The translations under genes were made by a program, and so were the position numbers. Positions 28,231-46,939 of a DNA stretch of 64,000 bases are shown one piece after another. Under the pieces are notes generated by a model, which ran no database searches, was not told the origin of the DNA, and saw nothing but the letters and a program-made list of their open reading frames with translations. This stretch comes from Betaproteobacteria bacterium HGW-Betaproteobacteria-1 (lineage in GTDB: Bacteria; Pseudomonadota; Gammaproteobacteria; Burkholderiales; Methylophilaceae), in assembly GCA_002842435.1 (NCBI GenBank), contig PHCX01000002.1:186001-250000 (forward strand). The letters run 5' to 3'. The stretch's first letter is position 1. Every line of letters begins with the position of its first letter.

Positions 28231-28245
28231 GCAAAGACCGTGCCA
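28231..28245 (-). promoter_or_regulatory. Sigma-54 (-24/-12) promoter for epsA-epsB-vanZ
   Basis: On the minus strand TGGCAC-N5-TTGC, an exact match to the RpoN core consensus with the invariant GG and GC ten bases apart. Transcription would start near 28219, giving an untranslated leader of about 185 nt before epsA. A matching promoter occurs at 43990. Confidence 0.8.
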
Positions 28246-28373
28246 TGTTCTCAAGCTATTGTTTTGTATTGATATTTGTTCTTTTCGCATGAGTCGCCAA
28301 CTGCAGAATCTGTCTGCAAATGACGACAGCAGATATTTCAAAGATGTTAAGTAATTGATTTCAATTGATTAAC

Positions 28374-28395
28374 CATGTCTCAAGTCGCAGACATG
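28374..28395. promoter_or_regulatory. Inverted repeat, probable enhancer site for a sigma-54 activator
   Basis: CATGTCT-N8-AGACATG, a perfect 7-bp inverted repeat. Its core TGTCT-N8-AGACA (28376-28393) is 130 bp upstream of the sigma-54 promoter of epsA. The same core at almost the same distance precedes the sigma-54 promoter at 43990. It also lies upstream of the divergent gene at 28641. Confidence 0.7.
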
Positions 28396-28640
28396 TTTGA
28401 AATGCGTCCGCAGAAAGCCCGACAGCACGGCGTTCCAGGCAAGACGGCATGTTGTATATGAAGTGGAAGGGCGTAGTCCGAACGGCCTATTGTTGGATTG
28501 CGGCCGGATTCCTAAGATGGCTGGCATTGAGAAGTGGGCATTGTGAATTGGCATGGAGGCATAAAAGCCATGCTGGCCAGCCTGAGCAAGTCCGTCTGAT
28601 TCTCAATCATTTATCAACTTTTGGGTTTGCTTGGATTGAG

Positions 28641-29162
28641 ATGGCGATTGAGATGACCGACAGCTTGAAACACAGGTACAGCGACCTTGAGGATCTGGGC
28701 AGTGCTGACCGCTATATGGATGAGATTCTGGAGATCATTCATCAGATCGATCTGTTCGATGACTTGAATGAGGCTGAAGTGCGGCTCGTATGCCAGCACA
28801 TGCGGTGTTATGGCGCACCGCGAAATCACATCATTCTGCAGGAAGGCCTGGCGGGTGACGGGCTGTTGCTGGTGCTGACCGGAGCCGCTCGCGAGATCGG
28901 CCAGGTGGCGGGCGAGCAGGCCGAGATTGAAGTGGAAGTGGGTACGACGCTGGGTGCGACGTCGTTCATCGACGGCAAGCCCCACCTGACGACCTGCATC
29001 AGCAGCGTACCCATGGATTTTGCAGTGTTGAGCCGCGAAGAGTTGAACGCCATTCTGGACGAAGCGCCACGACTGGGTAACAAATTGCTGCTTGCCTTGC
29101 TGAAGATCGTCTCAAGTCACCTGCGTACAGCCAGCCGTCACTCTCTATCCAGTATTGCCTGA
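28641..29162 (+). CDS. Cyclic-nucleotide-binding-domain protein without DNA-binding domain
   Basis: About 173 aa. A single cNMP-binding beta-roll (residues about 30-150: IDLFDDLNEAEVRLVCQHMRC, IILQEGLAGDGLLLVLTGAAR, VEVGTTLGATSFIDGKPHLT). It stops where a Crp/Fnr protein would begin its helix-turn-helix, so it is not a classical transcription factor. The Arg-Ser phosphate-binding motif of cAMP-type pockets is not evident. Start 28641 is tentative (GGATTGAG upstream); 28653 is also possible. First gene of the long rightward eps unit; may sense a nucleotide or act as a protein-interaction module. Confidence 0.7.
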   Translation: MAIEMTDSLKHRYSDLEDLGSADRYMDEILEIIHQIDLFDDLNEAEVRLVCQHMRCYGAPRNHIILQEGLAGDGLLLVLTGAAREIGQVAGEQAEIEVEVGTTLGATSFIDGKPHLTTCISSVPMDFAVLSREELNAILDEAPRLGNKLLLALLKIVSSHLRTASRHSLSSIA

Positions 29163-29232
29163 TGCATTTTGCAAGGCGCTATGCATGGCCATGCCATGGC
29201 TTATGAGCACTATCGTAAAGAGGAGTCTGAAG

Positions 29233-30054
29233 ATGAAAAAACATTTGGAAAGATTGATAAAAGCCTGTTTGCTTATCTGCACCTTGGTCGGCACCCTGGC
29301 ATTTGTTCCGCCACTGCAGGCAGCTTCTTCTGATTACCAACTGGGCGCCGGCGACCTGATTCGTATCAGCGTCTTCCAAAACGCGGACCTGGAACTTGAG
29401 ACACGTATCTCCGAGGACGGCAGCATCAACTATCCGCTGATCGGTACGGTAGAGCTTGCCGGACTTTCAACCGGTGCTGCCGAGCAACTGATCGCGGAAA
29501 AGCTCAGCAGCGGCGGTTTCGTCAAACGCCCGCAGGTCAACATCAATGTAGTGGATGCACGCAGCAGCCAGGTCTCGGTCATCGGCATGGTGAATGAGCC
29601 CGGCCGCTATGCGCTGGAGAGCGGCCGCATGCGTCTTACCGCAGTCATGACCCTGGCCGGCGGTCTCATGCCCGAGGCTTCCGACATCGTCATCGTCACC
29701 GGCCAGCGGGATGGCAAGCCGTTCCGCCAGGAGGTCGATCTGCCGGCACTGTTTCTGGATGAAGGCAGCGAGAACAATATCTTCATTACCGCCGGTGACG
29801 AGATATTCGCCCAGCGTGCGCCAGTGTTCTACATCTATGGCGAGGCGCAAAAGCCCGGCTCCTATCGGGTGGAGCGCAATATGAGCGTGATCCAGGCTCT
29901 GGCCCAAGGCGGCGGCCCGACGGTCAGGGGTACGCAGCGCAATATCAAACTGCTGCGACGCAATGCCGAAGGCGTGACCGAAGAGCTCAAGCCGAAGCTG
30001 ACGGACCTGATCCGCGCGGACGATGTGATCTTTGTCAGTGAGAGTTTGTTCTAG
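29233..30054 (+). CDS. epsE: Polysaccharide export protein (Wza/EpsE type)
   Basis: 273-aa periplasmic/outer-membrane export protein: signal peptide (to about residue 30, FVPPLQAASS), Poly_export domain (YQLGAGDLIRISVFQNADLE) and SLBB repeats (VSVIGMVNEPGRYALESG, VFYIYGEAQKPGSYRVE). No lipobox Cys is visible, unlike Wza. GAGGAG lies about 9 nt before the chosen ATG; an upstream in-frame ATG at 29155 overlaps the previous gene. Forms the outer part of the EPS export channel together with EpsF and EpsL. Confidence 0.9.
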   Translation: MKKHLERLIKACLLICTLVGTLAFVPPLQAASSDYQLGAGDLIRISVFQNADLELETRISEDGSINYPLIGTVELAGLSTGAAEQLIAEKLSSGGFVKRPQVNINVVDARSSQVSVIGMVNEPGRYALESGRMRLTAVMTLAGGLMPEASDIVIVTGQRDGKPFRQEVDLPALFLDEGSENNIFITAGDEIFAQRAPVFYIYGEAQKPGSYRVERNMSVIQALAQGGGPTVRGTQRNIKLLRRNAEGVTEELKPKLTDLIRADDVIFVSESLF

Positions 30055-31467
30055 ATGTTGCCGATGAACCTCACCAGCCTGTTACTGATCGTCAGGGCGC
30101 GCCTGAAGATCGTGTTGTTCACCCTGGTCATGACCGTGCTGGCGGCAGCCGTCATCAGTCTGCTGATGCCGAAATACTACAAGGCCGGCACCCAGCTGGT
30201 GGTGAATTACAAGGGCGCGGATGCGCTGACCGGCCATTCGAATCCATCGCAGCTGATGCCCGGTTACCTGGCGACGCAGGTGGACCTGATCAAGAACCGC
30301 AGGGTGGCGCTGCAGGTCGTCGATGACCTGAAGCTGGTCGAGAGCGAAGCCATGCAGGCGAATTTCATGGAAGCCACGGAAGGGCGTGGCGAAATCCGCC
30401 AGTGGCTGGCCAGCCAGTTGCTCAAGCGGCTGGAAGTTTCGCCCTTGCGTGAGAGCAGTGTGCTGGAGATCGTCTACAGCGGGCGTGACAGGGAGCTGGT
30501 CGCCTACGTTGCCAATGCCTTCGCCGCGGCCTATCAGGATCTGACCCTGCAACTGAAAGTGGAACCTGCGCAGAAGGCGGCGAGCTATTTCAGTGAACAG
30601 GTCTCGGCACTCAGGAGCAACCTGGAACAGGCGCAATCGCGCATTTCGCAATACCAGCAGGAGAAGGGCATCACCAGCGCCGATGAACGGCTGGATATCG
30701 AGACCAGCAAACTCAACGAACTGTCGCAGCAACTGGTGATGGCCCAGACGGCGGCCATTGAGGCGCAATCGCGCCAGAGCAGTGCCATGAGCAGTGCGAA
30801 TGATTCGCCCGATGTGTCCGCCAACCCGGTGATACAGGGACTGCGCGTCGAGGCTGCACGGGCTTCGACCAAGCTGGCCGAGCTGTCTGAACGCCTGGGG
30901 CCGAGCCATCCGCAATATGAGGCGGCGGCGGCAGAGCTGAAGAATATCCAGAGCCAGTTGCGTAACGAGATCAGCAGAACTTCGAACACGATCGCCAGCA
31001 GCGCCAGGATCGAACAGCAGCGCGCTGCAGAACTGCGTGCGCAGGTGGCGGAGCAGAAGCGGAATGTGCTTGAACTGAACCGCATGCGCGATGAACTGGC
31101 GGTGTTGCAGAAGGATGTGGAAACAGCCCAGCGCGCCATGGACAACGTGACCGAGCGTTTCAGCCAGACCACCATTGAGGCACAGTCCAACCACATCGAT
31201 ATCGCCGTGTTGTCTGCAGCGCAGGAGCCGGGTTCTGCCTATACGCCGAAAATCCCCTTGAATATCGCGCTGGCCCTGGTCGTCGGCACGGTGATGGGCA
31301 TCGGCCTTGGGCTCATCGCCGAGATGCTGGACCGCCGTGTGCGCAGCAGTGACGACCTCGCAGAGTTGCTCGGCGTGCCTGTGATTTTCATGACCAACAG
31401 AACGCACCGGGTGACCGGCCCCAAACAGTTGCCGGGCCAGCCCGGAAGATACCTGCCTTCCGTCTAG
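30055..31467 (+). CDS. epsF: Chain-length determinant / Wzz-type protein EpsF
   Basis: 470-aa polysaccharide co-polymerase. Two transmembrane helices near the ends (about 18-38 and 395-417) flank a long periplasmic coiled-coil segment rich in Gln/Ala/Glu (about 160-390, EQAQSRISQYQQEKGITSAD, then the SEQVSALRSNL region). Wzz motif PGSAYTPKIPLNIALAL precedes TM2. The short cytoplasmic tail (DDLAELLGVPVIFM) lacks a kinase domain; that is encoded separately by the next gene. It starts directly after the epsE stop, so the two are coupled. An internal ATG at 30064 is an alternative. Confidence 0.92.
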   Translation: MLPMNLTSLLLIVRARLKIVLFTLVMTVLAAAVISLLMPKYYKAGTQLVVNYKGADALTGHSNPSQLMPGYLATQVDLIKNRRVALQVVDDLKLVESEAMQANFMEATEGRGEIRQWLASQLLKRLEVSPLRESSVLEIVYSGRDRELVAYVANAFAAAYQDLTLQLKVEPAQKAASYFSEQVSALRSNLEQAQSRISQYQQEKGITSADERLDIETSKLNELSQQLVMAQTAAIEAQSRQSSAMSSANDSPDVSANPVIQGLRVEAARASTKLAELSERLGPSHPQYEAAAAELKNIQSQLRNEISRTSNTIASSARIEQQRAAELRAQVAEQKRNVLELNRMRDELAVLQKDVETAQRAMDNVTERFSQTTIEAQSNHIDIAVLSAAQEPGSAYTPKIPLNIALALVVGTVMGIGLGLIAEMLDRRVRSSDDLAELLGVPVIFMTNRTHRVTGPKQLPGQPGRYLPSV

Positions 31468-31489
31468 GGCTGTGATGAATAGGACCAAG

Positions 31490-32365
31490 ATGAATATCAG
31501 CCATATCAATCCCTCGCCCATGACCCCGGATGGCCGCCGGCCGATGATGATCGGCCAGCTGCTGCTGGAAATGGGAAAGCTCACCAGTGATCAACTGGAG
31601 CGTGCGCTGGCCTTGCAGCAGAAATCCGGCATGGCTTTCGGTGAAGCGGCCAAAAAACTCGGGTTCGTCAGTGAATCCGATATTCAGCGCGCCTTGGCTA
31701 TCCAGTTTGAATATTCCTATCTGCCGCGACATGAGGAAACCTTCAGCCGCCGGCTGCAGGCGGCCTATGAGCCGTTCTCGCCGCAGGTCGAAGCCTTGCG
31801 CGCATTGCGCAGCCAGCTGGCGCTGCGCTGGTTCAACCAGGGTTTCAAGACGCTGGCAGTCGTAGCGGCGAATCCCGGCGACGGCTGTAGCGACCTTGCC
31901 GCCAATCTGGCAGTGGTATTTTCGCAGCTGGGTGAGCGCACGCTGCTGATAGATGCCAATCTGCGTACGCCGGAACAGCGCAAAATTTTCAAACTGCAGC
32001 AGCCTCGCGGCCTGTCGGATGTCCTTATCGGCCGTAATGACCTGAGCGTGGTCTGCCGGTTTGACTCGCTGAAAAATCTGTCGGTACTCGGTGCCGGTAC
32101 GGTTCCACCCAATCCGCAGGAGCTGCTGAGTCGGCGTGGCTTTGCCGCGATTCTGGACAAGGCCCGGGAGCAGTACGATGTCGTTATCGTCGACACGCCG
32201 CCGGCCGTAGTGACCTCCGATGCCCAGGCCATTGCCGCCAATTGCGGCGGTGCGCTGCTGGTATCGCAACGCAACCTGACACGCATGGCCGACCTGGCCA
32301 ACGTGCGGGATCAATTGCTGGTGTGTGATGTGCAGATCGTGGCCGCCATTGTCAAGGACAGCTAG
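31490..32365 (+). CDS. epsG: EpsG-type BY-kinase-like ATPase with N-terminal MshEN-like domain
   Basis: About 291 aa. Residues about 20-85 resemble the GspE/PilB N-terminal (MshEN) domain (IGQLLLEMGKLTSDQLERAL, FGEAAKKLGFVSESDIQRAL), which binds c-di-GMP in some ATPases. The rest is a tyrosine-kinase/MinD-like domain with Walker A' (RTLLIDANLR) and Walker B (YDVVIVDTPP). The Walker A position reads NPGDGCSDLAANLA, so the usual GK[ST] lysine is absent. There is no C-terminal tyrosine cluster. Partner of EpsF in length control. Starts at 31475 or GTG 31472 are possible; AGGA precedes 31490 by 5 nt. Confidence 0.83.
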   Translation: MNISHINPSPMTPDGRRPMMIGQLLLEMGKLTSDQLERALALQQKSGMAFGEAAKKLGFVSESDIQRALAIQFEYSYLPRHEETFSRRLQAAYEPFSPQVEALRALRSQLALRWFNQGFKTLAVVAANPGDGCSDLAANLAVVFSQLGERTLLIDANLRTPEQRKIFKLQQPRGLSDVLIGRNDLSVVCRFDSLKNLSVLGAGTVPPNPQELLSRRGFAAILDKAREQYDVVIVDTPPAVVTSDAQAIAANCGGALLVSQRNLTRMADLANVRDQLLVCDVQIVAAIVKDS

Positions 32366-32390
32366 AGCCTCAGTCATGGAGAGCGTTTGA

Positions 32391-33689
32391 ATGGCTGCTG
32401 CCGGCTTGCTTAGATCATCGGGTAACACACTTGCCACGACGGTGGTGATTACTGCCATCGGTTTCATCACTTCGGTCATCACGGCCCGTGTGCTTGGCCC
32501 AGAGGGCCGGGGGCTGCTTTCCGCCGCGCTGCTGATCGCCACGCTGGGCGGCAACATCGCCTTGTTCGGCATGGCCAACAGTTTTATCTACCACAAGGGT
32601 ACCGGCCGTCCATTCAATTACAAATTGTTCATGGTGGCTTCCCTGCTGTTTGCCGCCGGATTCTCGGTCCTCATCGGCTATTTCGGCTTGCAGCTGACGA
32701 GCGAGACGCAACTGCACGGACAGTGGCTGCTGATATTGCTACTGACCAGCATCACGGCGACACAAGGCTATTTTTATGCCCTCAGCCAGCTGCAGGCCAA
32801 GCTGCATTTCTTCAACCTGATGCGCTTTGTGCTGGTGGCCGGCAACCTCATTTTATTGTTGGGTTTGCTGGCGTTCTATGAGGAAGTCGATTTCCGCAAG
32901 ATCCTGCTGACGCAGACCATCGTCAGCGCCGTGCTGACCATCATGGGTCTGGTCTGGGCCGGGCAGAACCGGGTGTGGGAGGGCGCAGACCACAGGAAAC
33001 AGCCGGTTAGCTGGAAAAACATGCTGCGTTACGGCGTCAGCCATCACGGCACCGTGGTGCTGGGTCTTCTGCTGGTGAACTTCGACAAGGTCGCGCTGCT
33101 GAATATCGGCACCATCATCGAATACGGCTTCTATGCCCTGGCCTTTACCACCTCGCGCCTGATCGGCGCCCTGCAGGAGGCGGTGTCTACGGCCCTTTAT
33201 TCGCGCTTTGCCGGCAAGGATGTCGACGAGCTTTCCCGCCATGTGCGCGTGGCATTCCGCCTGACCTTTGTGCCCATGCTGACGCTCGCCGCCATCGGCG
33301 CATTGTTGTCGCCCTGGCTGATCGTCTGGGTCTATGGCGATTCGTTCGCGCCGACCGTGATTCCGTTCGCGGTGCTGTTGTTCGAGTGCGTGATCGCCGG
33401 TGCCAGCTGGACTTTGGCGCAGCGCTTCAATGCCGGCGGCCGGCCCGGCTTGGTGTTCATGCGGCAGTTCATTTCGGTGTTGCCGGTCTTCATGGCGTTG
33501 CCGTTCCTGCCCGCAGAAAACATTCATGTTTACCTAAGTCTGCTGATGCTGGCCGGTGCGGTACTCAGGCTGTCGGTGACGATGGCCATCTATCCGCTGG
33601 TGCTGAAAGAAACGCTGCCCGATGTATTGCCGACTGTAGAAGACTGCAAAGCCGTATTCCGGCTTTTGACCAGGCGCAGTTTCGGCTGA
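32391..33689 (+). CDS. Wzx-type polysaccharide flippase
   Basis: 432-aa oligosaccharide flippase with about 12 hydrophobic segments. It opens with GNTLATTVVITAIGFITSVITARVLGPEGRGLLSAALLI, the usual Wzx/MATE-superfamily pattern, and has the repeated half near residue 205 (NMLRYGVSHHGTVVLGLLLVNFDKVALLN). Moves lipid-linked repeat units across the inner membrane for polymerisation. Lies 25 bp after epsG. With no ABC transporter in the locus, this indicates a Wzx/Wzy-type pathway. Confidence 0.88.
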   Translation: MAAAGLLRSSGNTLATTVVITAIGFITSVITARVLGPEGRGLLSAALLIATLGGNIALFGMANSFIYHKGTGRPFNYKLFMVASLLFAAGFSVLIGYFGLQLTSETQLHGQWLLILLLTSITATQGYFYALSQLQAKLHFFNLMRFVLVAGNLILLLGLLAFYEEVDFRKILLTQTIVSAVLTIMGLVWAGQNRVWEGADHRKQPVSWKNMLRYGVSHHGTVVLGLLLVNFDKVALLNIGTIIEYGFYALAFTTSRLIGALQEAVSTALYSRFAGKDVDELSRHVRVAFRLTFVPMLTLAAIGALLSPWLIVWVYGDSFAPTVIPFAVLLFECVIAGASWTLAQRFNAGGRPGLVFMRQFISVLPVFMALPFLPAENIHVYLSLLMLAGAVLRLSVTMAIYPLVLKETLPDVLPTVEDCKAVFRLLTRRSFG

Positions 33690-33698
33690 GGAACATAG

Positions 33699-34733
33699 AT
33701 GAAAACCATGAGAAGTCAGGTGAATGAGATGAATAGTCCTGTCCAGCAACACGAATTTTTGATGAACACCCTGGCCAGCGAGCATGAGATTTTGCTCGAT
33801 CGGTTGCGCGGGCGGCCGTTTCATTATGTCGATATCCCGGTGCACGGCAATATCGGGGATCTGCTCATCATGCACGGCACGCTGGCGTTTTTCCGCAAGC
33901 ATGGCCTGCGCCCCCGCATCACTGCGCCGGCCTTTGCCTACAACCCCGGCTGGATACGAGATGACGACGTGATCGTGTTCCACGGCGGCGGCAATTTCGG
34001 CGACCTTTATTCCGCCTATGGCATGCAACCCTTGCGTGAGCAGGTGGTGGCGAGCCGGCCGCAAAACAGGATTATCGTGCTGCCGCAGTCCATCCATTTT
34101 TCGTCCGACGCCGAAAGAAAGCGTTCTGCCGCTATCTTCCGCCAGCATCCGGATGTGCATATCTGCGTGCGGGATTTCAACTCGTACAAGATTGCCAGCG
34201 ATTTCACCGACCACATCTATCTGCTGCCCGACATGGCGCATCAGCTCTATCGCATAACCGCCGATTCGGCACTTTCAGCTAAAGGCGCACTGCGCATCAG
34301 CCGCACCGATGATGAAAAGAGCGCGTTGATGGCAGATGAGGAGTTGGACGTGCTGGCGACGACGGACTGGCCGGAGCTGGTCGGCGACGGCGAGAAGTCT
34401 ATCGAACGTTTCCGCAAAACCATGCATATCGCGCACAAGGCCGGATTGAGCCATGCCGGCAATCGCTTGCTGACCGATTCCTGGGTGCGCTACTCGGCCA
34501 AGCTGGTGGACAAGGCCATCGAACTATTTGGCCGTCATGAGCATATTTTCACCGACCGTCTGCACGGACACATTCTGGCCTGCCTCATGGATAAACCCAA
34601 CACCGTCATCGATAACAGTTACGGCAAGAACTCGACGTACGTCAATGCCTGGACGGTGCCCAGCGAGCTGGTATCACAGCAGCATCATTCCCTCCCCCTG
34701 GCAGGGGAGGGAGAGGGTAGAAACCGGACATGA
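33699..34733 (+). CDS. Polysaccharide pyruvyl transferase (3' end altered by a duplication)
   Basis: 344-aa protein of the pyruvyl-transferase family (CsaB/EpsO type), adding ketal pyruvate to EPS sugars. Visible: VPVHGNIGDLLIMHGTLAF-like start (here IPVHGNIGDLLIMHGTLAFF), VIVFHGGGNFGDLY, IVLPQSIHFSS, VCVRDFNSY-like (ICVRDFNSYKIAS), and TDRLHGHILACLMDKPNTVIDNSYGKN. GAGGAAC precedes the start. The last about 20 residues (after SELV) are translated from a G/C palindromic repeat and look acquired; the family normally ends about there. A tandem copy of the 3' end follows (34800-34996). Confidence 0.87.
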   Translation: MKTMRSQVNEMNSPVQQHEFLMNTLASEHEILLDRLRGRPFHYVDIPVHGNIGDLLIMHGTLAFFRKHGLRPRITAPAFAYNPGWIRDDDVIVFHGGGNFGDLYSAYGMQPLREQVVASRPQNRIIVLPQSIHFSSDAERKRSAAIFRQHPDVHICVRDFNSYKIASDFTDHIYLLPDMAHQLYRITADSALSAKGALRISRTDDEKSALMADEELDVLATTDWPELVGDGEKSIERFRKTMHIAHKAGLSHAGNRLLTDSWVRYSAKLVDKAIELFGRHEHIFTDRLHGHILACLMDKPNTVIDNSYGKNSTYVNAWTVPSELVSQQHHSLPLAGEGEGRNRT

Positions 34734-34996
34734 GCACAATCAAGATTTCCACCCCCATCCCATCCTTCCCCCTGATCGGGGGAAGGGGTAAAACCATCGC
34801 CGTCATTGACAACAGTTATGGCAAGAACTCGACGTACGTCAATGCCTGGACGGTGCCCAGCGAGCTGGTATCACAGCAGCATCATTCCCTCCCCCTGGCA
34901 GGGGGAGGGAGAGGGTAGAAACCGGCATGAGCACAATCAAGATTTTCACCCCCATCCCATCCTTCCCCCTGATAGGGGGAGGGGGTAAAACCATCG
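34603..34996 (+). repeat. Tandem 197-bp duplication with GC-rich palindromes
   Basis: Two head-to-tail copies (34603-34799 and 34800-34996) with period 197 bp and few differences. Each begins with the 3' end of the pyruvyltransferase gene (IDNSYGKNSTYVNAW) and holds two REP-like palindromes. The first type is CCTCCCC-N6-GGGGAGG at 34691-34710, and CCCTCCCCC-N5-GGGGGAGGG at 34887-34909 in copy two. The second is CCTTCCCCC-N5-GGGGGAAGG at 34764-34786, with a variant at 34961-34981. The second copy is a non-functional gene fragment. This fills most of the 412-bp gap before the next gene. Confidence 0.93.
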
Positions 34997-35040
34997 CCGC
35001 CATCGTGCGGCTCATGGTTTTATTGGCCCCTTTCACTCAA

Positions 35041-35091
35041 AACAATGTGCTTCAGCACATATATTTTGTGGGGAAGACCCTTGCGGTCTTG
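35041..35091 (+). other. Short hairpins before the glycosyltransferase gene
   Basis: ATGTGC-TTCA-GCACAT (about 35044-35059) followed by ATATTTTG, and AAGACC-N5-GGTCTT (about 35074-35090). The first could be a weak terminator or an attenuator inside the eps unit. No ORF is recognised in 34997-35146. Confidence 0.35.
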
Positions 35092-35146
35092 AGGGTTCGC
35101 CCAGTAAGTCCCGGCTTTGCCGTGGGTAATTTGATCAGGAAAAATT

Positions 35147-36226: not shown

Positions 36227-37701
36227 TGCTGGCAAGACTCCAGCAGCGTTACATGGAGAACCTGAAGACCGCTGCAGGCGGTCTGTTCCTGCTGCTGGCC
36301 AGTGTGGCCGGCGGGCTGGGCGTGGTTGCCTATGTCACGTTGGTGGAAGGCAATCTCATGCTGATCTCGGCGCTGCCGTTCGTGCTGGCGATGATGATCC
36401 TGCTGGTGGTCGACAAGCGCATGCTGTTGCTGCTGATCCTGATGTTCCGCGCTTCCGGCGATGTGGTGTTCGAAATGTCCAAGTTCGGTGGCGGCTTCGG
36501 TGTCGGCGCGCTGATCAATGCGCTCATCATCTTCATCGCCATGCTGTTCGTGCTGGAGCGGCCGGGCGGCATCACGCGCAGGGTGGCTTCGATTTGGGGG
36601 CCGGTATTGCTGGTCGCTTGTGTGGCACTCGCCTATGCGCCGGAATTCAGGGACGGTTTACGCATGCTGCTGGCGTTGACCTCCTATTGCGCGGTGTTCG
36701 TCATCGCCTTTTATGTGGTCAGGTCGCGGGCCGATTTCGAGTTGTGCGTCACCACCATCCTGCTTTCTTCGCTGATTCCGGTGCTTTACGCCTTCGTCGA
36801 TATCGCGCAGAACATCAACACATTTTCAGCCGACGGTTTCAGGCTGCAGAGCACCTTCAGTCACCCGAATATCTTCGCGTTCTACATCGTTCTCTGCATC
36901 TCGCTATTGTTCTACCGGCTGAAGACACGACTGGTGCAGGCTTCGGCGGCAACACGCTGGACATTCGTCGCCTACATGCTGTTGCTGTTGGGGCTCTTGG
37001 TGATGACCAAGACGCGCAGTGCCTGGGCGGCCTGCTTCGTCATCTTTGCCGTCTACGGTTTGTTGTTCGAGCGTAAATACCTGTTTTATCTCCTGCTGGC
37101 GCTAGTGGCGGCCTTGCTGATCCCCAGCGTGCGCGACCGCCTGCTCGATCTGGGCAGCGGCAATGAATACGTGCGCAACGCGCAGCTCAACTCCTTTGCC
37201 TGGCGCCTGTTTCTCTGGGAGTCCGCCATCGAATGGATGAGCAAGGCCAAATCCCTGTTCGGCTACGGCCTCAACTCGTTCAAGCATTACTCGCCGGTGT
37301 TCTTCCCCTTGGCAGGCAACACGCATTTCGGTGCGCACAGCACCTATGTCCAGTGGTTCTTCGAGACCGGCGTGGTCGGCATCATGACGGCCATCTGGAT
37401 GTATGCGCGGCTGTTCTTCACGCTCAAGCTCGGCAGCCAACAGGACAAGCTGCGCACAGTGATCGCCATCACGCTGGTGATCGAATACCTGTTCTTCGCC
37501 TTCTCGGACAACATGCTGGATTACCTCGCCTTCAATTGGTATTTCTGGTTCTTCATGGGGGCGGCTTGCGCCATGACCATGGTGCAGCAGCGGGCCGAGC
37601 AGGAAGAGGCTGCAATGACGCAGCGACTAGTAGCACAGCAACGAGCAAGCAATACGTCCAGTTTTTTCAAGAGCAACCGCAGACATGAACCAAGATTCTG
37701 A
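36226..37701 (+). CDS. O-antigen ligase/Wzy-type polymerase
   Basis: 491-aa polytopic membrane protein with about 11-12 hydrophobic helices and the Wzy_C/WaaL signature in the large periplasmic loop: TRSAWAACFVIFAVYGL before it, then LFLWESAIEWMSKAKSLFGYGLNSF, FFPLAGNTHFGAHSTYVQWFFE. In a locus with Wzx, Wzz-like and Wza-like proteins it most likely polymerises EPS repeat units. Start chosen at 36226, coupled to the preceding stop (TGATG); an earlier in-frame ATG at 36142 lies inside the glycosyltransferase gene. Confidence 0.88.
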   Translation: MLARLQQRYMENLKTAAGGLFLLLASVAGGLGVVAYVTLVEGNLMLISALPFVLAMMILLVVDKRMLLLLILMFRASGDVVFEMSKFGGGFGVGALINALIIFIAMLFVLERPGGITRRVASIWGPVLLVACVALAYAPEFRDGLRMLLALTSYCAVFVIAFYVVRSRADFELCVTTILLSSLIPVLYAFVDIAQNINTFSADGFRLQSTFSHPNIFAFYIVLCISLLFYRLKTRLVQASAATRWTFVAYMLLLLGLLVMTKTRSAWAACFVIFAVYGLLFERKYLFYLLLALVAALLIPSVRDRLLDLGSGNEYVRNAQLNSFAWRLFLWESAIEWMSKAKSLFGYGLNSFKHYSPVFFPLAGNTHFGAHSTYVQWFFETGVVGIMTAIWMYARLFFTLKLGSQQDKLRTVIAITLVIEYLFFAFSDNMLDYLAFNWYFWFFMGAACAMTMVQQRAEQEEAAMTQRLVAQQRASNTSSFFKSNRRHEPRF

Positions 37702-38239
37702 CTGGCAGCAAGACCTCCGCCGCTATCCCCATCCCCGGCCGTTTCTCAAGGAGCAATCCATCTGGGCGGTCTGGGTCTATCGCTTCGGCCGTCGGGTCGA
37801 CCGTCGGCCTGATGGCGGCTGGAAGCGTGTGCTGACCATGCTCTACTGGCTGTTGTTTCGCGTGGTCGAGACCTTGCTGGCGACCAGTATCCCCAAATCG
37901 GCCTCGATCGGGCCGGGTTTACGCATCTGGCATTTCGGCGGCGTCTTCATCCACCCGGAGGCCAGCATCGGCAGCAACTGTACGCTGCGGCAGGGCGTGA
38001 CCATCGGCAACCGTAGCGAGGACGGCCCGGTGCCCGTCATCGGCGACAACGTCGATATCGGTGCCTATGCGCAGATACTCGGCGGCATCCGCATCGGCAA
38101 CGATTGCCGGATAGGCGCCATGACCGTGGTGCTGAGCGATGTGCCGGATGGGGCGACGGCGGTCGGCGTGCCTGCGCGCATCATCATGCCGTCCGGAGTT
38201 TCCGAATTGCCGGTGATTCTGGGAGGTGAGCCTGCATGA
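37685..38239 (+). CDS. Serine O-acetyltransferase-like hexapeptide acetyltransferase
   Basis: 184 aa with left-handed beta-helix hexapeptide repeats (about residues 70-170: ASIGPGLRIWHFGGVFIHPE, IGSNCTLRQGVTIGNRSEDG, IGDNVDIGAYAQILGGIRIG). It resembles CysE/SAT-type acetyltransferases but lies in the EPS operon, so an acetyl transfer to a sugar is more likely than cysteine synthesis. Overlaps the ligase gene by 17 nt and the next gene by 4 nt (ATGA). Confidence 0.85.
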   Translation: MNQDSDWQQDLRRYPHPRPFLKEQSIWAVWVYRFGRRVDRRPDGGWKRVLTMLYWLLFRVVETLLATSIPKSASIGPGLRIWHFGGVFIHPEASIGSNCTLRQGVTIGNRSEDGPVPVIGDNVDIGAYAQILGGIRIGNDCRIGAMTVVLSDVPDGATAVGVPARIIMPSGVSELPVILGGEPA

Positions 38240-39474
38240 GCGGATTCAAGGTCGCCTATTTCATCAATCAGTATCCCAAGGTGAGCCACAGCTTTATCCG
38301 CCGGGAGATTCTGGCGCTGGAGCGGCAGGGCTTCGAGGTGCAACGCATCGCCTTGCGCGGCTGGGATGGCGATGCAGTCGATAGCGAAGACCTGCAGGAA
38401 CGCGACAAGACCAGTTATGTGCTGCAGGACGGCATCTGGAGCTTGCTGGCTTCAACCTTCAGCATGCTGTTGAACCGGCCGCGGCAATTTTTGCAGGCAC
38501 TGCGGCAGGCGCTGAAAATGTCGCACCGGACCGACCGGCCCTGGCCGTTTCACCTGGTCTACCTGGCGGAAGCCTGCCGCATCGTGCCCTGGATGCAGTC
38601 CTTCGGTGCATCGCATGTGCACGCGCATTTCGGCACCAACTCGGCCGAGGTGGTCATGCTGGCCAGATTCCTCGGCGGCCCGGCCTACAGTTTCACCGTG
38701 CATGGGCCGGAAGAGTTCGACAAACCGCAGTTTCTCAAGCTGCGCGAAAAAGTCCGGCATGCGGCCTTTGTCGTCGCCATCAGCTCTTATGGGCGCAGCC
38801 AGCTTTACCGCTGGGTGGATTTCGCCGATTGGGACAAGGTCAAGCTGGTGCATTGCGGGCTGGAGCCAGCCTTTCATGAGAATCAGCAGGTGCCGGTTAC
38901 GGATGCGCCGCGTTTGGTCTGTGTCGGCCGCCTGTGCGAGCAGAAAGGGCAGTTGCTGCTGGTGCATGCGGTCAGCCGGTTGATGCTGAGCGGCATTGAT
39001 GTCCAGTTGGTACTGGCCGGTGACGGCGAGATGCGCGGCGAGATCGAGGCCTTGTTGCGGCAGTCTGCCTTGCAGCATTGCGTGCATATCACCGGCTGGA
39101 TCAGCAGCGAACAGGTGCGCGAGCAGATTCTGGCGGCACGGGCGCTGATATTGCCCAGCTTCGCCGAGGGTCTGCCGGTCGTCATCATGGAAGCGATGGC
39201 CTTGCGTCGGCCGGTACTCAGTACCTATGTCGCCGGCATCCCCGAACTGGTTCGGCCGGGCGAGGGCGGTTGGCTGATTCCCGCCGGCGATATCGAGGCG
39301 CTGACCGAGGCACTGAAACAGGTGCTCGCCGCGCCGCGCGAAGAGCTGGAGCGCATGGGCATACTGGCCCATGCCCGGGTGCTGAGAGACCATTCGATCG
39401 ACACCGAGGCGGCCCGTCTGGGGCGCTATTTCATGAACACGGCCGGCGCGGAATTCAGTTTCGCCGAGCCTTGA
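38236..39474 (+). CDS. Family 4 glycosyltransferase
   Basis: 412-aa GT-B enzyme: N-terminal domain begins VAYFINQYPKVSHSFIRREI, a pattern of WcaL/AmsK-type EPS transferases. The C-terminal nucleotide-sugar domain holds LVCVGRLCEQKGQLLLVHAV, VLAGDGEMRGEIEALL and ILPSFAEGLPVVIMEAMALR, the E-x7-E motif. Retaining transfer onto the growing lipid-linked oligosaccharide is expected. Start overlaps the preceding stop (ATGA). Confidence 0.9.
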   Translation: MSGFKVAYFINQYPKVSHSFIRREILALERQGFEVQRIALRGWDGDAVDSEDLQERDKTSYVLQDGIWSLLASTFSMLLNRPRQFLQALRQALKMSHRTDRPWPFHLVYLAEACRIVPWMQSFGASHVHAHFGTNSAEVVMLARFLGGPAYSFTVHGPEEFDKPQFLKLREKVRHAAFVVAISSYGRSQLYRWVDFADWDKVKLVHCGLEPAFHENQQVPVTDAPRLVCVGRLCEQKGQLLLVHAVSRLMLSGIDVQLVLAGDGEMRGEIEALLRQSALQHCVHITGWISSEQVREQILAARALILPSFAEGLPVVIMEAMALRRPVLSTYVAGIPELVRPGEGGWLIPAGDIEALTEALKQVLAAPREELERMGILAHARVLRDHSIDTEAARLGRYFMNTAGAEFSFAEP

Positions 39475-39487
39475 AAGCAGACCAGCC

Positions 39488-40678
39488 ATGATCATTCTTG
39501 AGTCGATTTTCCTGGGGTTGTTGTTGATCCTGTTCTTGCCGGTGCTGCTGTTCAGTCTGCAGGTGCTGCTGACGCTGCCAATATTCGGCAGAAACCCCGC
39601 CGCTATTGCAGCGTCAGCACGGCCTTCCATCGCAGTGCTGGTGCCGGCCCATAACGAATCCATCGGCATCCTGCCGACCCTGCAGGCCATTCGAGCCCAA
39701 TTGCAGCCGGGCGACCGTTTGCTGGTGGTCGCCGACAACTGCACCGACGATACCGCAGAGCTGGCGGCATCGGTTGGCGCCGAGGTGATCGAACGGCATG
39801 ACAGTGCACGCAGGGGCAAGGGTTACGCGCTTGATTACGGCGTGCGCTATCTTGAGTTTTCACCGCCGGATGTGCTCATCATCGTCGATGCGGATTGCAT
39901 GGTGCATGGTGACAGCCTGCAATTACTCGCCAGTCAGTGCCTGCAGACCAATAGCCCGGCGCAGGCCAGGTATTTGATGCAATCACCGGCCGGGGCAGGG
40001 CTCAAAACCCGGGTGGCCGAATTCGCCTGGGCGGTGAAGAACCGTGCAAGGCCGCTTGCCTATCAACGCTGCGGCCTGCCTTGCCAGTTGATGGGCACTG
40101 GCATGGCTTTTCCGTGGGCGTTGATACAGGCTGCAGAACTGGCAAGCGGCCATATTGTTGAAGACCTGAAGTTGGGACTGGATTTTGCCGCAGCCGGTCA
40201 TGCGCCGCAGCTATGCAGTGAGGCGCTGGTGACCAGCGTGTTCCCGGCGAATGCCGACGGCGCACAATCCCAGCGCACACGCTGGGAGCATGGTCATCTT
40301 GGCATGATCCTGACGGACGGCCCACGGCATCTGGCTTTGGCACTGCGCACGATGAACGGGCGGTTGCTGGCGCTGGTGCTGGATATGTGCGTGCCGCCGC
40401 TGGCCTTGCTCACACTGCTGGTCGTTCTGCTGGCCTTGCTCGCTGCAGTGATGTCATGGGTGAGCGGGGCTATCTGGCCCTGGGGTCTGGCGATCCTAAA
40501 CCTGTTGCTGCTCGGCATCGCGGTCCTGCTGGCATGGCTAGTCCATGGCCGGCATATCCTGTCTTTCAGCCATCTGGCCTATGCGCCTTTTTATGCGCTG
40601 GCCAAGGTGCCTCTGTACTTTAAGTTCATCTTCAAGCGTCAGGTCGACTGGGTGAGATCCAGGCGCGATCAGAGTTGA
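39488..40678 (+). CDS. Membrane-bound family 2 glycosyltransferase
   Basis: 396 aa, cellulose-synthase-like layout: N-terminal helix (about 1-25), GT-A domain (IAVLVPAHNESIGILPTLQA, VVADNCTDDTAELA, DVLIIVDADCMV), a downstream Q/R-x-x-R-W-like motif (SQRTRWEHGHLGMI) and two or three C-terminal helices (about 300-365). Typical of transferases that work at the inner membrane. Acceptor unknown. Confidence 0.88.
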   Translation: MIILESIFLGLLLILFLPVLLFSLQVLLTLPIFGRNPAAIAASARPSIAVLVPAHNESIGILPTLQAIRAQLQPGDRLLVVADNCTDDTAELAASVGAEVIERHDSARRGKGYALDYGVRYLEFSPPDVLIIVDADCMVHGDSLQLLASQCLQTNSPAQARYLMQSPAGAGLKTRVAEFAWAVKNRARPLAYQRCGLPCQLMGTGMAFPWALIQAAELASGHIVEDLKLGLDFAAAGHAPQLCSEALVTSVFPANADGAQSQRTRWEHGHLGMILTDGPRHLALALRTMNGRLLALVLDMCVPPLALLTLLVVLLALLAAVMSWVSGAIWPWGLAILNLLLLGIAVLLAWLVHGRHILSFSHLAYAPFYALAKVPLYFKFIFKRQVDWVRSRRDQS

Positions 40679-40691
40679 GCGGGTGTAAGCG

Positions 40692-41756
40692 ATGATTTTC
40701 GTTCTGCTGCAGATACTCAGGGGGGTGGCCGCATCGATGGTGGTGTTCCATCACTATGTCGCCTCCCAGCTTGAGCGGCAGTTTGAGGTGCAGCAGTGGA
40801 TAGAGGATCTGGGCGGTTCGGGCGTTGACATCTTTTTTGTCATCAGCGGTTTCATCATGATGATTACGCAGTCCGATCCCGAGCGTCCTGCTTCTTCCAG
40901 GGATTTTCTCTGGCGTCGCCTGGTGCGTATCGCGCCGCTCTATTGGGCATTGACCATTGCCGCTTTTGCGCTGGCATTGCTTGCGGGCGATGCCGTGCAC
41001 GCCGATTTCAGCCTGCAAAAGGCGCTGAGTTCCATGCTGTTCCTGCCCTTCGGCAGTGGTATCGATATGGAGATGAATGCGCACACGGCCTATGTGATCC
41101 CGATGGCATGGACGCTGACCTATGAATGGTACTTTTACCTGGTGTTCGCCGTGACATTGGCATTCGGACTGCAGCCAGTGGCGCGTCTCGGTGTCATGGC
41201 AGGCTGGTTCGCCATCAGCGTCGCCGCTGCCTTTGTTCTGCAACCGGCGTCCTTGATTTTGCAGATGGCGGGCAATCCTATCGTGTTCGAATTTCTGCTG
41301 GGCTGCCTGGTCGCCATTCTTTATCGCAAGGGTTACCGGCTTGGCGGTTTGCAGGCCGTGGCACTGGCGGCCGCTGCGGTCTTTCTGCTCAGCAATATTT
41401 TCCACCAGACTGCGTTTGAGCGGATCCTGCTGTGGGGTGTGCCTGCCTTCATGCTCATCGCCGCTGCCAGCCTGTATCAGGCCGGACGGCTTGATCTAAT
41501 CATATTGCGCCCGCTGGTCAGGCTGGGCGATATCTCCTATTCGCTCTATCTGTCGCATTTCTTTTGCCTGGCGCTTTTCGTCCGCATGCAGGATCGATCG
41601 AGCCTGCTCAACCAAGGCTTCAGCCCGTTGAGCCTGGCCTTGTTCACGTTACTGGTGTTGCTGGTTGCCGAGCTTTGTTACCGCTGCATCGAAGAACCGG
41701 CACGCAAGTATTTCAGCCGTCGCCATCGTTTGTCGGCGCAGCCGGCCAGAACATGA
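40692..41756 (+). CDS. Acyltransferase 3 family membrane protein (first copy)
   Basis: 354-aa integral membrane O-acyltransferase with about ten helices. Opens LLQILRGVAASMVVFHHYVA, with family motifs GVDIFFVISGFIM and FLWRRLVRIAPLYW, and closes IEEPARKYFSRR. Such enzymes acetylate or succinylate EPS sugars. Second of three acyl-transfer genes in the locus. Confidence 0.9.
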   Translation: MIFVLLQILRGVAASMVVFHHYVASQLERQFEVQQWIEDLGGSGVDIFFVISGFIMMITQSDPERPASSRDFLWRRLVRIAPLYWALTIAAFALALLAGDAVHADFSLQKALSSMLFLPFGSGIDMEMNAHTAYVIPMAWTLTYEWYFYLVFAVTLAFGLQPVARLGVMAGWFAISVAAAFVLQPASLILQMAGNPIVFEFLLGCLVAILYRKGYRLGGLQAVALAAAAVFLLSNIFHQTAFERILLWGVPAFMLIAAASLYQAGRLDLIILRPLVRLGDISYSLYLSHFFCLALFVRMQDRSSLLNQGFSPLSLALFTLLVLLVAELCYRCIEEPARKYFSRRHRLSAQPART

Positions 41757-41769
41757 ACGGCAGGAAAGC

Positions 41770-42816
41770 ATGATGGAGAAGCAGCGTTTTGTGGTGCTCG
41801 ACGGCTGGCGCGGCATCAGCATATTGATGGTGCTGGCGGCGCATTTATTGCCGCTCGGGCCCAAGGTCCTGCAGTTGAACGTTGCCGCAGGCCTGTTCGG
41901 CATGGTGCTGTTTTTCAATCTGTCAGGGTTCCTGATCACCCACTTCCTGCTGCATCGCACCGATGTGCTGGATTTCCTGATTCGGCGGCTGTTTCGCATC
42001 CTGCCGCTGGTCTGGTTGTACATGGCTTTCGTCCTGCTGGTTTATCCTGTTTTCGGCCCTGGTTCCAGCCCGGGCTCTAGTCTGGGCTCTAGTCTAGTAT
42101 CGGGCGAAACATGGTTGGCGCATATGCTGTTTTATGCCAATTACCCGCCCAAGCCTCTTATCCCGGCGACCGACCACCTGTGGTCGATCTGTGTGGAAAT
42201 CCATTTTTACCTGGGCATCGCCCTGCTGGTCGCGCTGTTGAAGAAAAAAGGGCTGATGCTCCTGCCTTTCCTTGGCATCGGCTTCACGCTGTTGCGGGTG
42301 ATGAACGACATGCACTTTTCGGTGATTACGCACTTTCGCATCGACGAGATTCTGGCCGGCGCCATCCTTGCACTCATTTACAACGATAAGTTGGGCAAGG
42401 GCCTGCGCGAGTTTTTCTCGCAAGGCAGCGCGCTTTTGCTGCTGCCCTTGCTGGTGGTCACCTGCCTGCCGGATGCCGGTTTCCTCAACTACCTGAGGCC
42501 GTATGTTGCCGCCGCGCTGATAGGCGTGACGCTGTTTAATCCGCAGTCGCGTCTGGTGCCCCTGCTCAACACCCGTTTTCTTGTCTACGTCGCCTCCATC
42601 TCGTATGCCCTGTATGTCATCCATATGTTCCTGATGACGTCCTGGCTTGGCAGTGGCGAGGGTTTGGAAAAATACGCCAAACGCCCCCTGCTGTTCCTGA
42701 CCCTGTTTTTTGCCGCACACCTATCCACCTTTTATTACGAAAAACGCTGGATAGCGCTGGGCAGGAGAATCTCGGAGAAATTACGACGTCAAGGAGGCAG
42801 TTATGAGTTCAAGTAG
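41770..42816 (+). CDS. Acyltransferase 3 family membrane protein (second copy)
   Basis: 348 aa, about ten helices. FVVLDGWRGISILMVLAAHL is the R-x10-H family motif, followed by VLFFNLSGFLITHFLL, FLIRRLFRILPLVW and, later, TDHLWSICVEIHFYL. AGGAAAG precedes the ATG. It contains an in-frame tandem repeat near residues 96-110 (GSSPGSSLGSSLVSG; DNA 42059-42097) in an external loop. Diverged from the upstream acyltransferase, so probably a different sugar position or acyl group. Confidence 0.9.
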   Translation: MMEKQRFVVLDGWRGISILMVLAAHLLPLGPKVLQLNVAAGLFGMVLFFNLSGFLITHFLLHRTDVLDFLIRRLFRILPLVWLYMAFVLLVYPVFGPGSSPGSSLGSSLVSGETWLAHMLFYANYPPKPLIPATDHLWSICVEIHFYLGIALLVALLKKKGLMLLPFLGIGFTLLRVMNDMHFSVITHFRIDEILAGAILALIYNDKLGKGLREFFSQGSALLLLPLLVVTCLPDAGFLNYLRPYVAAALIGVTLFNPQSRLVPLLNTRFLVYVASISYALYVIHMFLMTSWLGSGEGLEKYAKRPLLFLTLFFAAHLSTFYYEKRWIALGRRISEKLRRQGGSYEFK

Positions 42817-43804
42817 GCAAGGGTTGCTGGTCGCGGTGATGCTTGGGGTTTCAATCCCTATGCCCTTTATTTATTCGGGTGGGGCAAAGGCAGGTGAAGC
42901 CGTGTTCTCCCCCGGCAGCTTCTGGTATCAGGCTATTCCTGCCGATGTTCCGCTGCACCCGCAATCCGCAGACTTCATGAATGAATTCCTGCGGCAGAAA
43001 TCCGCCTATTACGGCACCGTCAATCTCAATACCCGGGAGTATGCCAGCCCGGTCTATACCGTCGGTGCGGGCGTTGCGACGGTCAAGGTGAAAGAGTGGG
43101 ATTGCCAGAAAAAAGGTTTCAGCTCGCCGGAGCTGGCCGCGCAATGGACTGCTGTGCCAATACCGGGCCATGCGCTGCCATCCAAGGGGACGGATGCTGA
43201 AATGACCATCTATCAGCCGTCGACCGATACGGTATGGGAATTCTGGCAGGCCAGAAAAGTGAATGACGGATGGCAGGCCTGCTGGGGAGGGCGCTTGCAG
43301 AACGCCTCGCAAAGCAACGGCGTGTTTCCCGGGCATTACGGGACGACGGCGACCAGCCTGCCTTTTCTCGGTGGCCAGATTACTGCCGAAGAGTTGAGTC
43401 GGGGCGAGATCAACCATGCCATCGGTATTTCACTGGTCGAGGCCGAGGACCACAGCATCTTTTCATGGCCGGCGAATCGATCCGATGGCCTTAACCCCAA
43501 TAATGCCCCCAACCGCATACCGGAAGGCCTCCGCTTCCGGCTCGATCCTACTGTAGATGTGGATAGCCTGAAAATGAGCAAGGCAGGGAAAGCGATTGCC
43601 AAGGCGGCACAGAAGTACGGATTCGTCGTCTGGGACAAGGCCGGTGCCCTTTCAATCCGCATGCAAAACAGCCTGTCCTACACCACGCTCGGCCAAACTG
43701 ACCCATACCCGGCCTTGTTCGAGGGCAAACCAAACTATGCGGTGCTGAATGGCTTTCCCTGGCATCGCCTGCAATTCCTGCCCATGCACTACGGCAGGCC
43801 ATGA
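42803..43804 (+). CDS. Secreted protein of unknown function in the EPS operon
   Basis: 333 aa. N-terminal signal peptide (about 1-30, ending GGAKAGEA). The mature part contains conserved-looking blocks: FWYQAIPADVPLHPQSADF, IYQPSTDTVWEFWQARKVND, GWQACWGGRLQNASQSNGVF, and late in the chain the VVWDKAGALSIRMQN block. I recall similar sequences of unknown function in actinobacteria and other soil bacteria but cannot name a domain. Many aromatic residues and the export signal suit a carbohydrate-binding or polysaccharide-modifying role, which is inference. It overlaps the preceding acyltransferase by 14 nt. Confidence 0.75.
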   Translation: MSSSRQGLLVAVMLGVSIPMPFIYSGGAKAGEAVFSPGSFWYQAIPADVPLHPQSADFMNEFLRQKSAYYGTVNLNTREYASPVYTVGAGVATVKVKEWDCQKKGFSSPELAAQWTAVPIPGHALPSKGTDAEMTIYQPSTDTVWEFWQARKVNDGWQACWGGRLQNASQSNGVFPGHYGTTATSLPFLGGQITAEELSRGEINHAIGISLVEAEDHSIFSWPANRSDGLNPNNAPNRIPEGLRFRLDPTVDVDSLKMSKAGKAIAKAAQKYGFVVWDKAGALSIRMQNSLSYTTLGQTDPYPALFEGKPNYAVLNGFPWHRLQFLPMHYGRP

Positions 43805-43842
43805 GCAGAAAAAAGCGAGTGCCTAGCTGAAAAAAGTCATGT

Positions 43843-43860
43843 TGTCTGTGCTGAGAGACA
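43843..43860. promoter_or_regulatory. Inverted repeat TGTCT-N8-AGACA, probable enhancer site
   Basis: Same half-sites and spacing as the repeat at 28376-28393. It lies 129 bp upstream of the sigma-54 promoter at 43990, compared with 130 bp at the epsA promoter, a typical position for a bacterial enhancer-binding protein. Confidence 0.72.
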
Positions 43861-43989
43861 CATAGAGTTGTTTTATATCAAATAGTTAGTGAAATTCGCG
43901 TGGATACAGTCGTGATATGCCGACAGAGCGACGGCAAAAAATATCGAGATTTTTTGTTTTATTGTATATAAAACAATAACTTGATGTTG

Positions 43990-44004
43990 TGGCACGCTAC
44001 TTGC
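43990..44004 (+). promoter_or_regulatory. Sigma-54 promoter for the wecG-galE-galU-epsL unit
   Basis: TGGCAC-N5-TTGC, identical in core to the epsA promoter. The predicted start is near 44016. Upstream DNA (about 43935-43985) is very AT-rich, which would favour bending between the enhancer and promoter. Confidence 0.82.
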
Positions 44005-44048: not shown

Positions 44049-44168
44049 ATGACGAATCGTCACATCGCCGCAACGGCAGAGCCCCGTCGCTGCATCTTGA
44101 GCGCGGCAATTCATGACACATTTCATGACACATGGACGAGTCCGGATTTTCCGGGGGCGATGCCATGA
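44049..44168 (+). CDS. 39-codon ORF coupled to the wecG-like gene
   Basis: First ORF after the sigma-54 promoter. AAGGAG lies 7-8 nt before its ATG, a much better ribosome site than that of the next gene, and its TGA overlaps the ATG of the glycosyltransferase (ATGA at 44165-44168). The sequence (MTNRHIAATAEPRRCILSAA at its start) has no recognised domain. Most likely a translational-coupling leader rather than a functional protein, but a small protein cannot be excluded. Confidence 0.5.
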   Translation: MTNRHIAATAEPRRCILSAAIHDTFHDTWTSPDFPGAMP

Positions 44169-46931: not shown

Positions 46932-46939
46932 GGAGTTCC

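Follow-up and report, generated by a model that had tools for sequence, protein, structure and literature searches.

In Enterobacteriaceae, the sigma-54 activator GlrR (also called QseF) acts together with integration host factor (IHF) at glmY and glmZ, whose promoters combine TGTC-N10-GACA sites, IHF matches and a sigma-54 box. The consensus for GlrR/QseF has been given as TGTCN10GACA (PMC8745638) and the QseF site as TGTN12ACA, IHF-assisted and present three times at glmY (PMC6075780), and the targets described in enterobacteria include glmY, with glmZ, and rpoE (PMC6075780, PMC8745638). The QseF-dependent P2 promoter of Escherichia coli rpoE is likewise a sigma-54 promoter with a similar upstream activating sequence (UAS) and an envelope function (PMC6075780). 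A further system is the PrsK/PrsR PEP-CTERM box (Haft 2006), where sites for an NtrC-type activator linked to exopolysaccharide (EPS) lie about 63 nt before a sigma-54 box (PMC1569441). Here we analyse a 64,000-nucleotide stretch of DNA from Betaproteobacteria bacterium HGW-Betaproteobacteria-1 (the window; contig PHCX01000002.1, positions 186,001–250,000, which is C7:186001–250000 of the 2.5 Mb genome that we call G000). Within it, two EPS transcription units, one headed by epsA and one by a wecG-like gene, carry promoters laid out like the enterobacterial GlrR switch. We put the probability that both are GlrR-dependent sigma-54 promoters at about 0.85, judging from their sequence.

A preliminary description of the window, made from its letters, had placed a sigma-54 box before each unit and an identical palindrome, TGTCT-N8-AGACA, 130 and 129 bp from the respective box. 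We found all of these coordinates to be exact. The half-sites of the two palindromes are identical, but their 8-bp middles differ, and the single palindrome per promoter, although real, is one part of a larger unit made of two sites plus IHF, the second site lying 65 bp nearer the promoter. The elements of the two promoters are as follows.

28231–28245, minus strand: sigma-54 box of the epsA unit, TGGCACGGTCTTTGC, TGGCAC-N5-TTGC
28252–28264, minus strand: weak IHF-like match before the box of the epsA unit, 8 of 9 specified bases
28311–28328, minus strand: UAS2, the proximal predicted GlrR site of the epsA unit, TGTCGTCATTTGCAGACA, 65 bp from UAS1
28348–28360, minus strand: predicted IHF site between UAS1 and UAS2 of the epsA unit, AATCAATTACTTA, 9 of 9 specified bases
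28376–28393, minus strand: UAS1, the distal predicted GlrR site of the epsA unit, TGTCTGCGACTTGAGACA / TGTCTCAAGTCGCAGACA, fits TGTCN10GACA
43843–43860, plus strand: UAS1, the distal predicted GlrR site of the wecG unit, TGTCTGTGCTGAGAGACA
43876–43888, plus strand: predicted IHF site between UAS1 and UAS2 of the wecG unit, TATCAAATAGTTA, 9 of 9 specified bases
43908–43925, plus strand: UAS2, the proximal predicted GlrR site of the wecG unit, AGTCGTGATATGCCGACA, one mismatch, 65 bp from UAS1
43971–43983, plus strand: weak IHF-like match before the box of the wecG unit, 8 of 9 specified bases
43990–44004, plus strand: sigma-54 box of the wecG unit, TGGCACGCTACTTGC, TGGCAC-N5-TTGC

The full unit thus consists of two TGTC-N10-GACA sites 65 bp apart and a sigma-54 box 82–83 bp past the start of the second site, which leaves a gap of 64–65 bp between the proximal site and the box at both promoters. 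The window sites fit the published GlrR/QseF consensus, exactly in three of the four cases. The IHF consensus is WATCAANNNNTTR, with nine specified bases, and a perfect match to it stands between the sites at an equal position and in an equal orientation in both promoters; in the wider set of elements described below, only 0.2% of Markov-shuffled spacers reach 9/9. The second, promoter-proximal IHF match scores 8/9 in both promoters, a level reached by about 10% of shuffled spacers and weak alone. As a yardstick we computed the same measures for glmY of E. coli K-12, where 63 bp separate the last two of the three sites and a perfect IHF match lies in between. That promoter differs from the two-site window promoters in having its IHF match on the other strand and its box 107 bp, rather than 82–83 bp, beyond the last site. 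It also has an overlapping sigma-70 promoter (PMC6075780) and a small RNA as its product, whereas the window promoters precede protein-coding EPS genes; the target of rpoE P2, a sigma factor, is again unlike these genes.

Could such an arrangement be accidental, or a promoter duplication that regulates nothing? Short motifs do recur: TGTC-N10-GACA taken singly is not enriched, with 28 places in the genome against 30 for a reversed control, and the exact TGGCAC-N5-TTGC box, found twice in the window and 15 times in the genome, is by itself not rare. However, exact TGTC-N10-GACA lies within 400 bp upstream of only two of these 15 sigma-54-like sites, both of them at the EPS units (a one-mismatch site occurs at two others), and the whole genome contains exact TGTCT-N8-AGACA just twice, both times at these promoters, while its reversed pattern is absent. 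The combination of sites and box, not any single motif, is what exceeds chance, as the preliminary description had argued for the palindrome. A scan of 187 genomes from the host's family, probably Methylophilaceae, found the strict whole element at 21 places and its reversed-pattern control at none in any genome, and the sites, the IHF match and the box are retained while much of the intervening sequence differs. We therefore regard a chance origin as negligible.

The 21 places in the family fall in 15 of the 187 genomes. Thirteen adjoin glrR, 11 of them with a BON gene in the stretch, five are at EPS genes (epsA or wecG) and three are elsewhere. In a sample of 56 epsA loci (30 from an order sample and 26 from the family scan, the best-scoring rather than all EpsA matches), the element stands at epsA in six, namely in the host and in G475, G330, G349, G477 and G011, and the matrix scores of the 56 whole loci are bimodal, at least 44.6 or at most 6.2. 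G011 belongs to another family and was later found to encode a GlrR of 60% identity. Upstream of wecG, compared in nine genomes, the element is present in four (the host, G475, G330 and G349) with spacings of 65 and 82–83, and in these same four both EPS units carry it. The proposal that the two EPS units have in common a sigma-54-type promoter plus an activator-type site in constant geometry is supported, and both features are conserved in some relatives.

A further copy of the element lies beside glrR of the host itself.

L018:2851–3012, genome C9:89424–89585: third element copy, immediately downstream of glrR, with a BON/EF-hand gene following

Its spacings are 64 and 83, compared with 65/83 and 65/82 at the EPS promoters, and an 8/9 IHF match lies between its sites at the same place as in those promoters.

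The genome has 11 matches to the sigma-54 activator domain, eight strong (above 200 bits) and three weak (at most 29 bits), and all eight strong genes lie outside the window, in keeping with the earlier statement that the window encodes no activator. One of the eight is GlrR, 58% identical to E. coli GlrR across 444 aa and sharing with it the recognition-helix stretch NRTEFYKLL. Upstream of glrR and in the same direction are a kinase gene and a lipoprotein-like gene, forming a probable glrK–lipoprotein–glrR cluster outside the window; the kinase fragment is 36% identical to E. coli GlrK over 295 aa, and the lipoprotein-like gene holds the position of QseG, with which only 24 aa align (E 0.026).

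With eight strong activator matches encoded, another resident activator (PilR, NtrC, NifA, an activator linked to an MSHA-type pilus, or the orphan L019) might bind the sites instead. Fis-type activators often use inverted repeats that contain TGT, and the PilR sites of Pseudomonas aeruginosa contain TGTC. Against this, the seven other strong activators are only 32–46% identical to E. coli GlrR and all lack NRTEFYKLL, and the element is linked to glrR at 45 of 118 public loci listed and at 13 of the 21 family places, linkage having been counted for glrR alone. Binding by one of these seven seems improbable to us. PilR, considered for its TGTC sites, was set aside as it has no match to the GlrR helix, and so was the MSHA-linked activator L021, whose receiver looks PrsR-like by eye but whose helix differs and whose gene lies at a pilus cluster.

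The region that holds this last gene (L021/L049; genome C6:180500–200400) encodes the NtrC-type activator beside the MSHA-type pilus cluster and also an ATPase related to the XrtA-associated ATPase. NifA is encoded elsewhere in the genome (over the cut-off; L025, genome C10:46623–50549, with L023, L005 and L008), with apparent nif genes nearby, and the same set of loci includes a large activator beside a GroEL-like gene, an arrangement that we take to be reminiscent of MmoR/MmoG.

The preliminary description had named PrsK/PrsR-type activators as candidates. PrsR, an NtrC-like activator, is tied to EPS/exosortase systems, and the mean distance from its sites to the sigma-54 box is 62.8 nt (PMC1569441), close to the 64–65 bp gap of the proximal sites here; an RpoN-dependent pepA promoter known in Aquincola also speaks for such control. 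However, none of the 28 matches to the PrsR model TIGR02915 in the genome passes its cut-off (PrsK was not searched for), and the best of them, at 385.7 of 502.6 bits, is the GlrR protein itself. The receiver most like that of PrsR, by eye, belongs to the gene beside the MSHA-type pilus cluster. PrsR motif 1 is a 17-nt sequence ending in TTTACA, as its text description has it (PMC1569441), whereas both proximal sites in the window end in GACA, and the PEP-CTERM box differs further in its activator family and in its targets, which are PEP-CTERM genes. The suggestion of a PrsR-type activator is thus not borne out, the sites fitting the GlrR/QseF consensus instead, and we give hardly any weight to PrsR/PrsK-type control of both units.

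The sites could also be operators of a regulator that does not act through sigma-54: EpsA itself, which is of LuxR type; the adjoining cyclic nucleotide monophosphate (cNMP)-binding protein, since the distal site lies within the divergent region before its gene; or a PpsR/CrtJ-type repressor, for which the consensus is reportedly TGTN12ACA. We consider this very improbable. The sites are missing from 50 of 56 epsA loci, the element occurs beside glrR with no epsA in the stretch, the PpsR-CrtJ model TIGR02040 has no match over its cut-off in the genome (best 25.4 of 275.4 bits), and the sites are in helical phase with the sigma-54 box among the public matches listed. The CRP-like protein beside the divergent genes was set aside as the spacing is wrong for a CRP site.

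This phasing comes from a scan of public contigs for two sites and a box, in which each spacing could take any of 31 values and glrR was not used. The scan gave at least 118 loci with at least 120 matches, and all figures that follow refer to the matches listed, which are a sample. We split them by half-site into 32 of GGACA type and 88 others. The site spacing is 63–69 in 85 of the 88 (19.9 expected if uniform), and their promoter spacings peak at 81–84, 92–94 and 102, about one helix turn apart; the -24/-12 boxes of the window promoters, at 82–83 bp, fall within the main peak. Helical phase among the 88 gives a Rayleigh R of 0.76, compared with a maximum of 0.31 in 2000 uniform draws. A match to IHF (at least 8/9) stands between the sites in 42 of 85 matches, where a Markov background gives 7%, and in 33 of these 42 its centre falls 2–3 bp ahead of the spacer midpoint. 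The stretch from the second site to the box contains an IHF match in 50 of 85 (background 10%).

Although glrR played no part in the search, it was found within 45 of the 118 loci, a call that required at least 50% identity over at least 200 aa inside the fetched stretch, mostly of 8 kb. It is present with 46 of the 88 non-GGACA matches and with 1 of the 32 GGACA-type matches (p 1.5e-7). For 33 of the 46 non-GGACA matches glrR precedes the element in the same orientation, and for 29 of the 33 its end lies no more than 132 bp from the first site. Downstream, the longest open reading frame (ORF) of at least 90 aa, not a checked gene, was taken; 104 of the 120 matches had one and 16 had none. Across the whole set, both classes together, these ORFs include 11 DctP, 10 bactofilin, 9 BON, 8 glycine-zipper, 7 HisKA-domain, 5 MdoG, 5 Peripla_BP_6, 3 FeeM, 3 glycosyltransferase 2 and 2 MlaC proteins, from a tally of 25 of 52 families. 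Many of the downstream proteins, not all, are envelope proteins.

The paired TGTCC/GGACA sites before sigma-54-like boxes (L104, L114, L132, L134, L136, L144, L148 and others) occur in Marinobacter, Halomonas and other genera. We set this class apart because glrR accompanies only 1 of its 32 matches listed, and it probably belongs to another activator, perhaps a DctD-like one of similar geometry given the 11 DctP ORFs counted over both classes.

Several observations weigh against GlrR control of the EPS promoters. In the window, the proximal site of the wecG unit carries the mismatch, and the promoter-proximal IHF match is weak at both promoters and on a strand unlike the usual one of the wider set. 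The best NCBIfam model for the host protein is GlrR, at 619.7 bits, below the cut-off of 763 for that model, and beyond the eight strong activators compared the genome encodes a further partial activator-like protein (L026/L048). The presence of a GlrR ortholog (best E below 1e-150, tallied by hand) in 14 of the 15 element-bearing genomes vs 57 of 187 family-wide (Fisher p 2e-7) speaks for GlrR, but shared descent among the genomes, the small genomes that have neither, and the 13 of 21 places that lie beside glrR itself all inflate this co-occurrence; the fifteenth genome, G331, is 85% complete and shows no ortholog. Conservation in relatives, on which the preliminary description had staked its claim, holds only in part, the element being kept at the six epsA loci named above and absent from the other 50 of the 56. 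It is likewise missing upstream of wecG in five of the nine genomes (G415, G435, G436, G437 and G452), although glrR is present in the last four. By eye, the first site of the copy after glrR also forms an 8-bp hairpin, with T-rich DNA behind it, and might serve as a terminator too; we retained it, rather than dismissing it as a terminator hairpin, because the second site and the box follow at matching distances. Finally, the pattern whose matches trained the weight matrix was itself modelled on the window sites, so composite scores are partly circular and not independent alone; the spacing peaks, the IHF matches and the glrR linkage are free of this circularity.

Four of the relatives without a wecG element, G452, G436, G435 and G437, have a sigma-54-like box about 200 bp upstream of epsA and no GlrR sites there (L275, L277, L278 and L279, respectively). 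Since this box is kept without GlrR sites despite the presence of glrR, the activator may have been exchanged. The predicted GlrR–EPS circuit is lineage-specific, confined to a few genera, and its mixed presence among relatives points to gain or loss.

The genes around the two promoters are as follows.

25833–27239, minus strand: wcaJ/epsB-like undecaprenyl-phosphate glucose phosphotransferase, TIGR03023 over cut-off
27226–28032, minus strand: epsA, LuxR-type regulator of XrtB/EPS clusters, TIGR03020 at 263.5 bits (cut-off 170), start codon ATG 28032 picked by eye
28449–43804, plus strand: central eps genes, encoding a cNMP-binding protein, epsE, epsF, epsG, a pyruvyl transferase, a Wzy-like protein, and glycosyl- and acyltransferases
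44132–44920, plus strand: wecG-like glycosyltransferase, TIGR00696 over cut-off, start ATG 44132 or 44165
44960–45967, plus strand: galE, TIGR01179 over cut-off
46041–46931, plus strand: galU, TIGR01099 over cut-off
46865–48169, plus strand: epsL, TIGR03014 over cut-off

The wcaJ/epsB-like gene overlaps the end of epsA and is probably in one unit with it. The epsA–wcaJ unit and the wecG–galE–galU–epsL unit both point outward from the central eps genes, toward which no match to the strict element pattern faces. Operon extents are assumed from gene order, as is a single transcription unit for the central genes.

The cluster resembles the methanolan (eps) cluster of Methylobacillus 12S, of XrtB type, in that the window has the EpsA, EpsE, EpsF, EpsG and EpsL families over their cut-offs; we take the models of these families to derive from that cluster. 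A literature search found nothing on GlrR control of the Methylobacillus 12S cluster, and no report of GlrR control of any EPS cluster, mainly among freely accessible papers. No exosortase model matched among 29 distinct window ORFs compared with NCBIfam. The small cNMP-binding-domain protein that heads the central genes (28629–29162) has no Pfam DNA-binding domain at E 1e-5. The EpsG tyrosine kinase (31472–32365) has an MshE-type motif for binding cyclic di-GMP (NF053729 over cut-off), hinting from its sequence at control of chain length or export by cyclic di-GMP.

The match of this multi-part element to the GlrR switch suggests that GlrR, known from gut bacteria, probably activates slime genes here. 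In the mechanism that we propose, the kinase GlrK would phosphorylate GlrR, and GlrR dimers would occupy both TGTC-N10-GACA sites, which lie 65 bp apart. Bending of the DNA by IHF between the sites, and perhaps also before the promoter, would allow the GlrR oligomer to contact sigma-54 polymerase at the -24/-12 box and lead to opening. The two units would thereby be switched on jointly, epsA–wcaJ providing the LuxR-type regulator and a priming enzyme and wecG–galE–galU–epsL providing precursor supply and an outer-membrane protein. EpsA might then act on the central eps genes as a feed-forward step, which is a guess.

The two promoters are a well-supported pair of predicted enhancers and, on this evidence, a new target set, EPS genes, of a known promoter type. 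A broader proposal, for which the odds seem to us about even, is that GlrK–GlrR governs an old beta- and gammaproteobacterial envelope regulon whose enhancer has a constant set of five parts (site, IHF, site, IHF, sigma-54). Within the family, the gene just after glrR, mostly one for a BON-domain protein, would be its usual target, and some lineages would have co-opted it for surface-polysaccharide genes, here in a feed-forward arrangement in which EpsA and the precursor genes are switched on together. A GlrR switch on an EPS cluster in what is probably a family of methylotrophs would imply a wider cell-surface role for this activator, and the same layout occurs in many beta- and gammaproteobacterial records. 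It would make glrR a single gene whose deletion should lower the expression of two EPS units, and would give the element the value of a searchable sequence code for the GlrR regulon.

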